Part shown: positions 318-36,436 of the stretch, in pieces | How the letters are laid out: each line of letters opens with the position of its first letter | Numbering within the stretch: the stretch's first letter is position 1 | DNA from: a virus | Virus record (IMG/VR): IMGVR_UViG_3300007735_000737 | Coordinates: 1 to 43,476 of that record | Length of the DNA stretch: 43,476 bases | Reading direction: 5' to 3' (one strand) | Notes under the pieces: model-generated | What the model was told of the DNA's origin: nothing | Seen by the model: only the letters and a program-made list of their open reading frames with translations | Database searches by the model: none | Position numbers and translations under genes: made by a program

Positions 318-491
318 TTACAGAATTGGCAGTAGACTTTTAGGGCGGCAAGAGGGAGGGAAGATCATCAGAACTCCCCACACATTGGGTAATAATGATA
401 AACACTCCCAGAGACACTTATATGCCCCAGGAAGGCACTTATAATTACTTTCAGGGCACAGAGTATCTTATAGTATTTATTTTAAAACTTG

Positions 492-499
492 TATAAATA
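492..499 (+). promoter_or_regulatory. T4-late-type promoter box
   Basis: TATAAATA matches the T4 late -10 consensus, which is also the late motif reported in cyanophages. No gene starts within 450 bp downstream, so any transcript would have a long leader crossing the repeat array at 630-863, or the match is chance in AT-rich DNA. Confidence 0.35.
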
Positions 500-629
500 A
501 AACAACTATTCAATTCATAGAGCAGCACTTGAACTTCCCACGGGACTAAAAGGTAACAATCTGACAGAAGAGAATAGTTATAAACAAGGCGAACAGGGTT
601 TAATTATAGATTTCCCAATGTGCCAAATG

Positions 630-863
630 ATTCGTGATTAGATAAGTCTCGTAATGAATGATAAGAATATAAGAAATCTAATACAATCATTTCAAAAAAT
701 GATTCGTGATTAGATATGTTTCGTATGCTTTCTTATAATTAACAAGACAGAGAAAAGATATTATAAATTCATTCGTGATTAGATAAGTTTCGTATCAGAA
801 CTTTTTATATCATTTTTTTCACAGATACTAATTGTTAGAATTCGTGTATAATAGTTCTTCGTT
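630..863. repeat. Iteron-like array: four units, about 70-bp period
   Basis: Three near-identical 24-bp units lie at 630-653, 702-725 and 771-794, each beginning ATTCGTGATTAGATA and ending TTCGTA (TCTCGTA in the first). A fourth, degenerate unit at 840-863 keeps ATTCGTG at its start and TTCGT near its end. Each unit is itself a direct repeat of TTCGT spaced 17 bp apart. Unit starts are 72, 69 and 69 bp apart, and the 45-48 bp between units are unrelated in sequence. The regular phasing with unrelated intervening DNA suggests binding sites for a protein, for instance at an origin or a promoter-proximal control array. No known array of this kind comes to mind. Confidence 0.75.
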
Positions 864-994: not shown

Positions 995-1162
995 ATGGCA
1001 AATTCGTATCTGTCGGCACAAAAGAATAAGTATCGCATTACTCTTGAACTTAGTGTAATGGAAGATTTTAATCCTCATCAATTAGATTGGAATAAACTCT
1101 TTAACCTTGAACCATCAGAACAAGTAGAGAGTTATGTAGAAGATCTCTCTGTTCGTTGGTAA
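995..1162 (+). CDS. Small conserved-type protein, 55 aa, function unknown
   Basis: The frame starts MANSYLSAQKNKYRITLEL and ends ESYVEDLSVRW. It has no signal peptide or membrane segment; the sequence is mixed-charge, with a DFNPHQLDW stretch in the middle. It reminds me of short hypothetical proteins in cyanomyoviruses, but I cannot give a function. The start is chosen because it lies about 35 nt downstream of the TAGAAT box at 954-959; no clear Shine-Dalgarno sequence is visible. The gene stands alone, followed by 500 bp without a gene. Its sigma70-type promoter suggests early expression, unlike the late structural genes further right, so a small host-takeover or regulatory protein is a reasonable guess and no more. 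Confidence 0.7.
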   Translation: MANSYLSAQKNKYRITLELSVMEDFNPHQLDWNKLFNLEPSEQVESYVEDLSVRW

Positions 1163-4296: not shown

Positions 4297-4698
4297 ATGC
4301 CATTAGAGCGAGTAAGTCAAGGTTTCAAAGATATCAGTATGACTTTTCAGAGCAATCCTCTGAATAGTGATTTGATTGCGCTTAAAAATGAAACTGCAAT
4401 TGCTCGCTCTCTTCGTAATATTGTTTTTACTCTTCCTGGCGAAAAGTTTTTTAATGAAAACTTTGGTTCAAGAGTCAGTAGATCACTTTTTGAAAATGTT
4501 GATGAAATTTCTGCATCAATTATTCGGGATGAAATTCGAAATTCAATTAATAACTATGAACCAAGAGTTCAATTAATTGAGGTACAAACAATTCCTGACT
4601 ATGATAATGGTTCTTTTGATGTGGTGATTAATTATAGAATTATTGGTGCCGATGTTCCTGCTCAGCAATTACAATTCGTTCTGCAACCTACTAGGTAA
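4297..4698 (+). CDS. 25: Baseplate wedge subunit gp25
   Basis: This 133-aa protein matches gp25 of T4-like phages (GPW/gp25 family, 132 aa in T4) along its length. The ISMTFQSNPLNSDLIALKN opening, the ARSLRNIVFTLPGEKFF stretch (residues 36-52) and the EPR core triad (E88-P89-R90 in NYEPRV) are diagnostic. In T4, gp25 sits with gp6 and gp53 at the inner baseplate and nucleates sheath polymerisation. Here gp6 follows directly: the gp25 TAA and the gp6 ATG are adjacent. The start has no clear Shine-Dalgarno sequence but lies just downstream of a late promoter. Confidence 0.95.
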   Translation: MPLERVSQGFKDISMTFQSNPLNSDLIALKNETAIARSLRNIVFTLPGEKFFNENFGSRVSRSLFENVDEISASIIRDEIRNSINNYEPRVQLIEVQTIPDYDNGSFDVVINYRIIGADVPAQQLQFVLQPTR

Positions 4699-6627
4699 AT
4701 GCCATTAGTAAATTTTACAAATCTGGACTTTGACCAGATCAAAACAACTTTAAGAGATTACTTAAAGTCCAATTCAAATTTTACCGATTATGACTTCGAA
4801 GGATCCAATCTTTCGACTATTCTTGATGTTCTGGCATATAATACCTATATTACTTCATATAATGCCAATATGGTGGCAAATGAGGTCTTCATTGATAGTG
4901 CAACACTCAGAGAAAATGTTGTTTCTCTGGCAAGAAATATTGGATATATTCCCCGCTCAAAAAAAGCAGCAAGAGCAACCGTAAGTTTCTTTGTCGATAC
5001 TACAAATATCACACCTGCTCCTGCATCTTTAACATTAAAAAAAGGTCCTGTTGCAAGTACGACAGGTTCTTTTGGTAATCAATCATTTGTTTTCTCTATT
5101 TTAGAAGATATTACGGTTCCTGTAGTTGATAATATTGCATCTTTTAATGAAATTCAAATTTATGAAGGCATTTTATTAAATACCAACTTCACTTATACAT
5201 CAAGAAATCCAAATCAGAGATTTATTCTTCCAAATAGTGGAATTGATACTGACTTAATCTCAGTATTAGTTAAAAATAATCCATCCTCAGCAACTGTCTC
5301 AGTAAAATATAATCTTCAAGATAGTCTATTTGGAATTGATAGTGAATCTGAAGTTTATTTTTTACAAGAAATTGAAGATGAAAGATATGAATTGATTTTT
5401 GGTGATGGTGTTTTTGGGAAAGCACTTCAAGAAGGTTATTATGTTGAAGCGTCATATATTGTAACCAATGGTGATAGTGGAAATGGCATTAGTCAATTTA
5501 GTTTTTCTGGAAGATTGACCTATACAAGAAATTCTATAGATTATGTCGTTTCCTCAGGAATTTCTCTTTTGACGACTGGTTTATCTTCAATTGGCGGTGA
5601 AAGTATAGAAGGAGTTGAATCAATTAAAAAATATGCGCCAAGAATTTATGCATCTCAAAATAGAGCACTAACTGCAAATGATTATGAGACTTTAATTCCT
5701 GCAAAAATTTATCCAGAAACAGAGTCTATTTCTGTATTTGGTGGAGAAGAAGTAGTTCCTCCACAATATGGAAAAGTTTTTATTAGCATTAAACCAAGAA
5801 CTGGTGATTTTCTTCCAAACTTGATTAAAGAAAATATTAAAATGAAGCTAAAGAAATATGCTGTTGCAGGTATTGTTCCAGAAATTTTAGATTTAAAATA
5901 TCTTTATCTTGAGATAGATTCAAAAGTTTATTATAATACAAACCTTGCTTCAAATTCAGCATATGTTTCTAGTATAATTCAATCAAATGCAAATAAGTAT
6001 GCAGAATCAACAGAGTTAAATAAGTATGGAGCACGGTTCAAATATAGTAAATTCTTGAAAATTATTGATGATAGTCATGCATCAGTTACCTCAAATATTA
6101 CTAAGGTTCAGATGAGAAGGGATCTTAGAGTTGTATTAAATAGTTTAGCAGAATACTCAATTGGTTTTGGAAATGAATTTCATATTAAGAATATCAATGG
6201 ATATAATATCAAATCTTCTGCGTTTAGAGTAAATGGAATTTTAGAAGATGTTTATCTTTCAGATATTCCAGATACTAATAGAAAAACGGGATCTATATTC
6301 TTATTCACTGTTCCATCACCATCATCATCGAGTCCAACAATTTTGAGAAGAAATGTTGGAAAAATTAATTATACTAGTGGCATTATTACATTGAATCCAA
6401 TCAATATTACTTCTGCCAAAATCAAAGATGGACAGTCAATTGTAGAAATTTCTGCCAATCCACAATCAAATGATGTAATTGGATTACAGGATTTATATTT
6501 GCAACTAGATATTAACAACAGTATATTTGAAATGGTTATTGATGAAGTTTCATCAGGTCTTGATCCATCTGCATCAAACTACATTGTAACATCAAGCTAC
6601 AACAACGGGAACTTAGTAAGATCATAA
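4699..6627 (+). CDS. 6: Baseplate wedge subunit gp6
   Basis: This 642-aa protein (T4 gp6 has 660) opens MPLVNFTNLDFDQIKTTLRD and carries the conserved segment LSTILDVLAYNTYITSYN (about residues 38-55), followed by NEVFIDSATLRENVVSLAR and IGYIPRSKKAARA. This is the gp6/gpJ baseplate family. gp6 forms the continuous inner ring that links the six wedges around the hub, working with gp25 and gp53. The gene is joined without a gap to gp25, and the gp7-like gene follows after 4 bases, so the three are probably translated in sequence. The middle, from FGDGVFGKALQEGYYVEASY (about residue 234), is typical beta-rich wedge structure. Confidence 0.95.
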   Translation: MPLVNFTNLDFDQIKTTLRDYLKSNSNFTDYDFEGSNLSTILDVLAYNTYITSYNANMVANEVFIDSATLRENVVSLARNIGYIPRSKKAARATVSFFVDTTNITPAPASLTLKKGPVASTTGSFGNQSFVFSILEDITVPVVDNIASFNEIQIYEGILLNTNFTYTSRNPNQRFILPNSGIDTDLISVLVKNNPSSATVSVKYNLQDSLFGIDSESEVYFLQEIEDERYELIFGDGVFGKALQEGYYVEASYIVTNGDSGNGISQFSFSGRLTYTRNSIDYVVSSGISLLTTGLSSIGGESIEGVESIKKYAPRIYASQNRALTANDYETLIPAKIYPETESISVFGGEEVVPPQYGKVFISIKPRTGDFLPNLIKENIKMKLKKYAVAGIVPEILDLKYLYLEIDSKVYYNTNLASNSAYVSSIIQSNANKYAESTELNKYGARFKYSKFLKIIDDSHASVTSNITKVQMRRDLRVVLNSLAEYSIGFGNEFHIKNINGYNIKSSAFRVNGILEDVYLSDIPDTNRKTGSIFLFTVPSPSSSSPTILRRNVGKINYTSGIITLNPINITSAKIKDGQSIVEISANPQSNDVIGLQDLYLQLDINNSIFEMVIDEVSSGLDPSASNYIVTSSYNNGNLVRS

Positions 6628-12600: not shown

Positions 12601-15600
12601 TTCAGTTAATGAATATCTTCCAGAAAAACTTTATTATACTTTAGTTCCAGTCTACAATAGCATATTGCCAATTGAAAAAGAAGAAGTAAATATAGATTCT
12701 TCTGTATTTTCTAATAATGAAATTCAAGTAAAAGTAAGCGATTATAATGGCGAATATCCAATAACAATTGCATCAACAACATCTTTCACTTACAATTTAG
12801 AAAAAACTCCAGAATTTGTTTCATATGCATCAAGTACTTCTATATTGAATTATGAAACAAATTCTTTATATGCATATGGTTCAATTTCCGAACTTAATAT
12901 TACAAACAAAGGACAAAATTATTATTCATTACCACCAATAACAAGTATAAATTCTGGAATTGGAACTGGTGCATTACTTGAACCATATAGCAAATCAATA
13001 GGAAAAATTAAAAAAACAAAGATTAAAGATATTGGATTTGATTTTCCATCAGATTTTACAATTAGACCAAGTGTTTCTCTCCCACAAATTGCAAAAATAG
13101 AACCTTTAGCTTCATTTGAATCTATTGGAATTACTTCTTTCGGTAGAGGTTATAGTTCTGCTCCTAAATTACTTGTCTTTGATGGAAAAACTAACCAAAT
13201 AGTTCCAGAAGTTGATTTAAGATATGATCTTGGTGATACTAAGGTAACTATTTTAAGAAATTCTTATGGTTTATATAATTTAACTCCTACAATTTTGCCA
13301 ACACAAAATTCAAATGGTGTTGGTATTAGTTCTATAGCATTTAATGCAATAACTAATGATGTAACAATTACACTTTCTGTTGGATTTAGTACTGCAGATT
13401 CATTTCCATTTGCTATTAATGATAAAGTTTTAGTTGAAAATATTAGTGTTGGAGTTAATTCTACCGCTAAAGGATATAACTCTTCTGACTATGATTATCA
13501 GTTATTTACAATTAATTATGTTGATGCAAATATTGGAGGAAATAATGCAACTGTCAGGTACAGTTTAAATGGATTTTTAAATTCTGGAGAAAATCCAGGA
13601 ACATATGATGCATCAAATTCTTCAGGAAGAATAATACCACAAAAATATTTTCCAATTTTCAATCCAGTTCTTAAGAAAAATAATTTCTTAATTGGTGAAA
13701 ATGTCAAATCAAATTCTGCAAATGGTTATGTTGAAGACTGGAATTCTACAATAAACCAATTAAAAATAGGTTCTAAAGATGATTTTGTAATTGGAGAGGT
13801 TGTTGAAGGATTAACATCAAAAACTCAAGGTATCATTTCTTCTATCAACAAATTCAATTCATTCTTTAATTTGGATTCAAAATCAACTGTCGAAAAAGGT
13901 TGGCAAATTGATGCTGGATTTTTAAATGAAAATTCACAAAGAATTCAAGATAGTTATTACTATCAGAATTTCTCATATTCACTAAAATCAAAAGTAGATT
14001 ATGATACTTGGAATGATGTAGTTGGGACATTAAACCATACCCTTGGATTCAAAAAATTTGCAGATTATCAATTAGAATCTTCATTGCCACAATCAAATGC
14101 AAATTCAATGGTTGTTGGACTTTCAACATATCTCACATCAGTTGAAGTTATAAATGATATAATTGGTGTTATTGATTTAAATTGTGTTTATGATTTTGAT
14201 TTGGTTAGCGAAAATTCTCTTAATATGGGATCATCAACATTTTCAGATGAAATATCATTTTCAAGTAGAGTATTAACTGATTATTTTGAATCTGTTGGCA
14301 ATAGAGTTTTATCGATTGATGATATTAGTTCTCAATTTAACAGCAATCCAAGAGCAGCAAGATATAGTGAAGTTCATAGATTTGATCTTACAGATGCAAG
14401 ATCTCAAAAATATATTACATATGTAAGAGATAAAAGATATACTGGACAAAGGCAGATGATGCTTTTAACTCTTCTACATGATAATGTCCTTGGATATATT
14501 AATCAATATGGAAGAGTTGAATCCACCTATGATTTGGGATCATTTGATTTTGGTGTTGAAGGAAGTGAGGGTGTCATTTTCTTCTATCCAACAAAATATA
14601 GCGTAAATGATTATGATGTAACCACATTGGCATATAATTTAAAAGATAGTCTTATTGGTACCGGTACTTCTAATTTTGGAGGTATTGTTGATATAAAAAC
14701 CAGTAGTGTTAGCGTTTCTTCTGGCGCAACCACTATTGTTGGAATTGCAAGTACTTATACTTCGACAAAAGTTTTAGTCGAAATTGCTGGGTCAAATGGG
14801 GATTATCAATTTGACGAATTAAGCGTTTTACACGATGGCACTACCGTACAATATCTTGATTATGGACAATTAACTACAATATCACAGGACATATATTCTA
14901 ATTCTGGACTTGGTACTTATTATGCATATCTATCAGGGTCTCAATTAAAAATTGATTTTATTCCAACTGTTGGAATAGCGGCAACAATTAATACAATTCA
15001 AGTTGCTGTCGGTAATACATTATCATCAGGTATTGGAACCTTTGATATGAAGCACGCTAGATTGCAGGCAACATCAACTTCAATAGCTTCATCGATATCC
15101 CCAGCAGCAACAGTAATTGCTGATTATCCAGAAGAATATGATGGAATATATGCAATACTTCAAGTTTCTGATGTAACTAACAATAGACATCAATTTTCAG
15201 AAGTTGTTGTTGTAGATGATGGAACAGAGACTTATATTGCAGAATATGCAAATATTAATACTTTTGGTGGCACAGGACTTGGTACTATAGGTGCTGTAAG
15301 TGGAATAACTTCAACAAGATTAACATTTACACCTTTACCAAATATTGATGTTGGAGTAAAAATATTTTTCAATGCATTAAGATATCAAGATGATGATAAA
15401 GATATTGTTGATTTTAATAACGCTACTATAGAAACAAATTATGGCACTTATTATGGCACTGATAGGGATATTAAAAGGGCATTCGAGTTGACTCACGAAG
15501 GTTATCCAATATTCCAAAGATCTTTTGATGGAAGTAATGCATCAATAGTCAATTTATCATCAAATACCATATCTTTACCAAATCACTTTTTCGTTACTGG

Positions 15601-18684: not shown

Positions 18685-20232
18685 ATGGCAGCAATTATAA
18701 CTGACCAAATTAGAATATTGAATGCGAAAAATTTTGTAGCGGGTGTTACAAGTTCTTCAAATTCTTATTATTCTTTTATTGGTCTACCAAATTCAACTGA
18801 TATTAAATCTGATTGGGATGTTACCCCACCTTCACCAAAAGATAATTTTGATGAAGAAAATAATTATTGGGACACAATGATTGCTTTGAAAAAAATAAAT
18901 TCAAGTGATATAAGACAGGTTGTCCAAAAAAGAATGTGGTCATCTGGATCAACTTATGATATGTATCGTCATGACTATAGCAGATCAAATACTGCTAAGG
19001 TCTCTGGCGCAGTTAGCTTATATTCTGCATATTATTATGTTTTAAATAGTGACTATAAAGTTTATATTTGTCTTCAAAATGGCACAAATCCAGAAAATCC
19101 GAATGGAAGACCTTCTTTAGATGAACCAACATTTACGGATTTAGAACCAAGGTCTGCTGGATCTAGTGGTGATGGGTATATTTGGAAATATCTTTATACG
19201 ATTAAACCAAGTGATATTGTAAAATTTGAATCAACAGATTTTATGCCCGTTCCTTCAGATTGGGAAAATGGTTCTGATAATGCTTCAGTTAGAGATAATG
19301 CTGTTGATGGATCAATTAAAATTGTCACTATTACAAATAGAGGAGTTGGATTAGGAACTGCAAATAGAACATATACAAGAGTGCCTATAAAGGGAGATGG
19401 TACGGGCGCAGAATGTACAATCGTAATCAATAATGATAGAGTAGTAGATTCGATTACAATTTCAAGTCAAGGATCTGGATATACTTATGGAAATGTTGAT
19501 TTAGTTTCTGGTGGAGTACCGACTGGATCAACTATACCTTCATTTAATGTTATTATTTCTCCACAAGGAGGTCATGGTTATGACATTTATAGAGAACTTG
19601 GTGCATATAATGCTTTGCTTTATTCAAGAATAGAAAATGATATAGAAAATCCAGATTTTATTACAGGAAATCAAATTGCTAGAGTTGGAATTGTAAAAAA
19701 TCCAAAAGCATTTGGAGGATCTTTACTGACCTTGGATAAAGCTAGTGCTCTTTCTGCACTTAGATTAACTGGGGCAGGTTACAGTTCTGCAACATTTACT
19801 GCAGATTCTTATATTACACAAACAATAGGAACTGGCGTAACTGCAGTTGGTAGAGTTGTCAATTATGATCGAAATACTGGTGTATTAAAATATTGGCAAG
19901 ATAGAACTTTTGCAGGATTTACTACTGCAGGTATTGGTATCACAAATCCAACTTATGGATTTGATCTAACGGAATTTACAAGTTCCCCATTAACAGGTGG
20001 TAGTATAGTTATTTCTGGTGGAAGTGTTTCTTTATCAATTAGCACTTCATTTACTGGTGTATCAACAGTAATAAATAATAGGACCTACTATTTTGGTCAA
20101 TCATTTACAAAGGGCATTTCTTCGCCCGAAGTTAAAAAATACAGTGGTAGTATTATTTACGTTGATAATAGACCATCAATTACTAGATCATCAAATCAAA
20201 AAGAAGATATCAAAGTCATTTTGCAGTTCTAA
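18685..20232 (+). CDS. 8: Baseplate wedge subunit gp8
   Basis: This 515-aa protein opens MAAIITDQIRILNAKNFVAG and carries YYSFIGLPNSTDIKSDWDVT and the DGYIWKYLYTIKPSDIVKF segment (about 164-182), both characteristic of gp8 in T4-like phages. T4 gp8 is 334 aa; the extra length is largely an insert of repeat modules near residues 215-280 (GDGTGAECTIVINN, then GSGYTYGNVDLVSGG), the same type as in the gp7-like protein and gp14. gp8 dimerises in the wedge and binds gp7 and gp10. It lies between the giant gp7-like gene and the DUF4815 gene, with a late promoter box just upstream. Confidence 0.9.
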   Translation: MAAIITDQIRILNAKNFVAGVTSSSNSYYSFIGLPNSTDIKSDWDVTPPSPKDNFDEENNYWDTMIALKKINSSDIRQVVQKRMWSSGSTYDMYRHDYSRSNTAKVSGAVSLYSAYYYVLNSDYKVYICLQNGTNPENPNGRPSLDEPTFTDLEPRSAGSSGDGYIWKYLYTIKPSDIVKFESTDFMPVPSDWENGSDNASVRDNAVDGSIKIVTITNRGVGLGTANRTYTRVPIKGDGTGAECTIVINNDRVVDSITISSQGSGYTYGNVDLVSGGVPTGSTIPSFNVIISPQGGHGYDIYRELGAYNALLYSRIENDIENPDFITGNQIARVGIVKNPKAFGGSLLTLDKASALSALRLTGAGYSSATFTADSYITQTIGTGVTAVGRVVNYDRNTGVLKYWQDRTFAGFTTAGIGITNPTYGFDLTEFTSSPLTGGSIVISGGSVSLSISTSFTGVSTVINNRTYYFGQSFTKGISSPEVKKYSGSIIYVDNRPSITRSSNQKEDIKVILQF

Positions 20233-36396: not shown

Positions 36397-36436
36397 TTTG
36401 TTCACCACACATTTCCCCCACGTAAAGTAAATTTTT

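Follow-up and report, generated by a model that had tools for sequence, protein, structure and literature searches.

What are the evenly spaced repeats in a non-coding gap of a T4-like cyanophage for, and what would read them? The window, meaning the whole stretch of DNA analyzed here (43,476 nucleotides; IMG/VR record IMGVR_UViG_3300007735_000737), derives from a T4-like cyanophage. Its gp6 gene (4699-6627) is closest to those of S-SM2 and Bellamy (76%) and is directly preceded by a gene for a baseplate wedge protein (4297-4698); a tRNA scan returned no hits. T4-like cyanophages are abundant, and the timing of their transcription, which proceeds without close equivalents of the T4 middle-mode regulators, is poorly understood.

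Four units were identified on the plus strand of the window, at 631-652 (TTCGTGATTAGATAAGTCTCGT), 703-724 (TTCGTGATTAGATATGTTTCGT), 772-793 (TTCGTGATTAGATAAGTTTCGT) and 841-862 (TTCGTG-TATAAT-AGTTC-TTCGT), with start-to-start steps of 72, 69 and 69 bp. The fourth, or terminal, unit keeps both TTCGT boxes and carries TATAAT between them at 847-852. The four units and their phasing of approximately 70 bp, as described in the initial annotation, were thereby confirmed at 631, 703, 772 and 841, far above chance; its wording of every unit as TTCGT-N12-TTCGT is exact for three of them, the second box of unit 1 being CTCGT. The TTCGT-N12-TTCGT pattern has three exact matches in the 43-kb window, compared with 0.03 expected from shuffles, and the 22-mer unit with up to three mismatches also has three (0.00 expected), all confined to one place. 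Further TTCGT boxes on the same strand lie within 914-931, at 914 (73 bp past unit 4) and at 927.

The array is flanked by two strong σ70-type promoters. The rightward promoter, P1 (931-959, plus strand; TTGACA-17-TAGAAT, 11 of 12 consensus positions), is also found in relatives and precedes a 55-amino-acid ORF at 995-1162 (plus strand), while the leftward promoter (164-136, minus strand; TTGACA-17-TATAAT, 12 of 12) lies across the gap and was seen by eye in array-less relatives as well. The promoters had been described as opposing; both are present as claimed, but their directions diverge rather than converge. The 55-aa ORF (pattern M..SYL.AQK.KYRITLE...DFNPHQIDW) belongs to PHROG 12516, of the PHROG class "unknown function," and its predicted structure is of modest confidence (pLDDT, 78; pTM, 0.46) and gives no functional hint. 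It lies downstream of every array where it could be located and is followed, in most of the contigs with ORFs listed, by a MEKIYHIYAKDKC ORF and an MAKGFTVKA ORF. GIY-YIG homing endonuclease-like ORFs, recognized by eye from the sequence, often lie directly left of the array gap (in oriented coordinates, L017 438-1202, minus strand; L032 2388-3068; L050 3816-4631; L059 4506-5534).

A conserved non-coding block at 486-630 (plus strand) forms a neighboring module, with a late-promoter-like TATAAATA at 492-499 and GGCGAACAGGGTTTAA...TTTCCC. Similar blocks with TATAAATA and GGCGAACAGGGTTTAAC...TTTCCCGATGTGCC occur in L011, L012, L014, L017, L018, L019, L036 and L044; column identity is approximately 80%, and a single small hairpin can be drawn, for which compensatory changes are few. 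In L013, a similar TATAAATA stretch is found inside the terminal unit, past the array.

To establish how widely the array is distributed, viral contigs were scanned with the unit core alone, which returned 14 stretches, and with two cores 66 to 76 bp apart, which returned 50. Excluding L051 and L052 (a 75-bp pair) and L021 (a single site), which were not counted as arrays, the remaining contigs carry the array, placing it in approximately 50 IMG/VR contigs of a single low-GC T4-like cyanophage lineage. Wherever ORFs were listed, it occupies the non-coding gap between the divergent promoters, upstream of the 55-aa ORF. Viral contigs hold at least 592 members of this ORF family, of which 80 were kept, and 44 non-redundant loci with at least 330 bp of upstream DNA were compared. 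The array was present in 21 of 21 loci whose 55-aa protein is ≥71% identical to that of the window and in 0 of 23 where identity is ≤69%. The search for placement at the homologous gap suggested in the initial annotation thus found the array there in all 21 close relatives and showed it to be absent from distant and cultured ones. A BLASTN search of 50,697 phage records gave no matching array, and a pattern search of six cultured genomes did not find it. By eye, S-SM2, Bellamy, SynMITS9220M01, S-SCSM1 and the 23 distant loci appear to have the same divergent promoters, separated by approximately 100 bp in which nothing resembles the array. Units scattered at random would have spoken against a dedicated array; none were found elsewhere in the searched contigs, which are incomplete genomes. 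A scan of prokaryotic genome contigs returned 31 stretches; their titles name other bacteria or archaea, with many Chryseobacterium among them and no cyanobacteria.

A consensus was built from 59 non-redundant core copies and reads approximately AAATTCATTCGTGATTAGATAAG[A/T]TTCGTATnnnnnnT. Copies were selected on the first TTCGTGATTA only, yet conservation extends to the second box and to the A/T positions on the flanks, neither of which had been selected for. The two TTCGT boxes of a unit are 17 bp apart, and arrays hold three to six or more units in a single orientation, facing the 55-aa ORF. Across 20 non-redundant arrays, all 68 unit-to-unit steps fall at 69 to 73 bp (mean, 71.2; within-array standard deviation, 0.43), a narrower range than the 66 to 76 bp tolerated in the scan; the exceptional steps in these arrays are three doubled ones (142 to 143 bp) and one of 251 bp. 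Spacer interiors are essentially unconserved, at 34.5% identity compared with 31% expected. They are 34.8% identical within an array and 35.7 to 38.7% between arrays, and since they are no more alike within arrays, their regular length is not left over from a recent duplication. Variable positions of the units, in contrast, agree at 54% within an array and 43% between arrays, as would be expected if the units track one reader protein. We read this pattern as probable selection on DNA length, together with co-variation of the units with a single putative reader. The proposal that a protein reads the array along the helix is well supported in that spacing is conserved among same-orientation sites while spacer sequence is not. 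No 10- to 11-bp signal of A-tract phasing was detected.

The series also keeps a register with P1. In nearly all arrays scored, its last TTCGT box lies 14 to 19 bp upstream of the P1 −35 element; in the window, the box at 914 is 17 bp upstream, and the additional box, at 927, overlaps the −35. The terminal unit is usually TTCGT-N-TATAAT-N5-TTCGT or a variant of it and sits at the normal step. Where P1 is more distant, an extra TTCGT approximately 72 bp past the terminal unit restores the register, and in L033, L037 and L042 this extra box has a second box 17 bp on, making a full pair. The register to this one promoter is fixed, with L013 and L053 as exceptions; the gap is larger in L017 (48 bp), and L047, in which no P1 was matched, could not be scored. 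Past the terminal unit in L011, L008 and L056, a hairpin-like inverted repeat (TACTCCTT...AAGGGGTA, ACTTCTT...AAGAAGT and ACTCTTT...AAAGAGT, respectively) followed by GTTTTAT was seen by eye, and these could possibly represent a small terminated RNA from a terminal-unit promoter.

Geometry, orientation, uniqueness, promoter register and lineage restriction of the array can be read directly from the DNA. On these grounds, the array is probably a cis-regulatory element, an operator or enhancer, of the early-type σ70 promoter P1 of the 55-aa ORF (probability, roughly 0.6). Of the roles first offered for it, early-gene control is the best supported, because the array keeps a fixed register with P1, the promoter of the 55-aa ORF, and behaves at that promoter as a module that relatives either carry or lack; an origin is possible but weaker, and no evidence for partition was obtained. 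Protein binding, its cooperativity, regulation and its sign, and the phage origin of the protein are inferred. A putative, probably phage-encoded DNA-binding protein would contact, in each unit, the ATTA adjoining the first TTCGT box as well as the two boxes themselves, which are 17 bp apart. Three to six or more same-orientation units, approximately 70 bp (6.6 to 7 helical turns) apart, would be filled cooperatively to give a regular wrapped or looped complex reaching from just upstream of the P1 −35 to 200 to 400 bp upstream, and this complex would set the timing or strength of P1 firing. Where the terminal unit combines TATAAT with a usable −35, binding there would be expected to block a second promoter as well, or to shift its timing. 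Several observations count against this regulatory role: the spacing corresponds to a non-integer number of helical turns at 10.5 bp, the ORF also follows a similar promoter in array-less relatives, L013 and L053 depart from the register, and the modest-confidence model of the 55-aa protein offers no clue to a function.

The length-locked but sequence-free spacers, the co-varying units, and the single orientation, locus and register favor a protein-read array over an origin, a promoter series or an RNA element. A replication origin, in which a phage initiator would bind the units as iterons and primer RNA would come from the divergent promoters, as happens at T4 origins, nevertheless keeps some weight because of AT-rich repeats, DnaA boxes in a minority of contigs, and the repeats of T4 oriE near baseplate genes. 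The gap of approximately 1 kb does hold strong divergent promoters, and several relatives have AT-rich tandem repeats beside the leftward one. In L053, ATAAATGCTC is repeated 7.8 times at 2580-2657, just beyond the leftward promoter, and similar repeats occur in L011, L044 and L245 and also in array-less relatives. Cyanobacterial-type DnaA boxes (TTTTCCACA; consensus from PMC4674748) form pairs or triplets in the divergent gap of some contigs, namely, at G004 19685-19720, G006 36400-36421, S-SM2 58063-58084 and in the L026 gap; in G004, a 73-kb contig, three of the four exact sites fall in this gap. T4 oriE likewise combines evenly spaced repeats with an early promoter (PMC3016281). However, relatives that share the gap, its leftward promoter and the 55-aa ORF lack the array. 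In most array contigs the gap contains no exact DnaA boxes, so a DnaA-box cluster was rejected as a constant component, and homology to T4 oriE was rejected since the repeats found there, inside gene 5, are 24-bp periodic and do not resemble the unit. In two cultured relatives, gene strand dominated the GC skew, which was uninformative. Overall, an origin at this locus seems unlikely, though worth keeping in mind.

Less plausible is a series of tandem promoters, in which each unit or spacer would be a promoter and the 70-bp step would reflect RNA polymerase packing. Perfect or near-perfect σ70 promoters do occur in single spacers (leftward TTGACA-TATGAT in L010, L011 and L020; rightward TTGACA-TATAAT in L033 and L037), and many terminal units carry TATAAT or a close variant. 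The strong spacer promoters vary in strand and position, however, and spacer scores remain near those of dinucleotide shuffles (leftward, 5.80 versus 5.74; rightward, 6.21 versus 5.73; standard deviation of the mean, 0.23), for which a σ70 promoter at a constant position in every spacer was rejected as a class. It is also very improbable that the element acts as RNA, the array being transcribed, for instance, from the late-promoter-like site at 492, with the motif serving as an RNA sponge or a series of structures. The conserved block directly upstream in several phages would suit this, but units and spacers fold no better on the unit strand than shuffles, Rfam gave nothing credible for the window or for 1-1700, and length-locked, sequence-free spacers point to DNA geometry; on the minus strand, one stretch stood out in folding (window 617-700; z, −2.2). 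A partition, packaging or DNA-organizing site with no tie to transcription would account for a single locus with regular, protein-site-like geometry, but the register is tied to P1 and the array is absent in relatives, making this the most far-fetched of these explanations.

If the array is a cis-regulatory element of P1, a reader would probably be encoded in the phages that carry it. A search by gene co-occurrence met too many lineage-specific ORFs. L126 encodes, at 14553-15101, a protein with a weak MazE/AbrB-type domain match that is common to four array contigs and present also in S-SRM01 and DSL-LC03; it was not found in four cultured array-less relatives. This protein is a weak candidate for the reader. 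A bolder and rather speculative extension is that a dedicated reader assembles into a regular superhelix over as many as six sites, spaced 70 bp from one another, which would be a new enhancer or initiator architecture coupling early transcription, and possibly the start of replication, in a T4-like lineage. With its single-copy locus, strict geometry, defined promoter, plus/minus split between lineages and within-array co-variation, the locus offers a direct handle for finding a phage regulator.

Judged from its sequence, the array looks like a previously undescribed switch. Searches of openly licensed full texts for the origins, early promoters, non-coding RNAs and intergenic direct repeats of cyanophages found no such element described, and the statement that nothing like it has been described in T4-like phages holds within these papers and the records searched. 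As a general class, multi-site phased operator or enhancer arrays of bacterial and phage promoters share with it same-orientation two-box sites, register with one promoter, neutral spacers and apparent selection on spacing. They differ from it in its step of approximately 70 bp, its boxes 17 bp apart and its six or more units in some cases, and no described case of that class with this unit or geometry was found. Plasmid iterons are approximately 20 bp long and nearly contiguous. Origins built from them resemble the array in having direct repeats that look like protein-binding sites at constant phase; unlike them, the array has unconserved gaps of 35 to 45 bp, and consistent DnaA boxes were not found at it, nor was an initiator gene recognized, the adjoining ORF being the PHROG 12516 member. 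CRISPR arrays likewise have spacers of constant length and unrelated sequence between short repeats. Here, by contrast, spacers are common to close contigs, a −10 box alters the last unit, and the register runs on into a promoter; a CRISPR-like nature was not supported, as no spacer turnover was seen between close relatives. A further parallel is T4 oriE with its 12-nt "iterons" (PMC3016281), which likewise places evenly spaced direct repeats and an early-type promoter near baseplate genes of a T4-like phage, whereas the repeats described here are approximately 37 bp long, recur at 69 to 73 bp and are non-coding.
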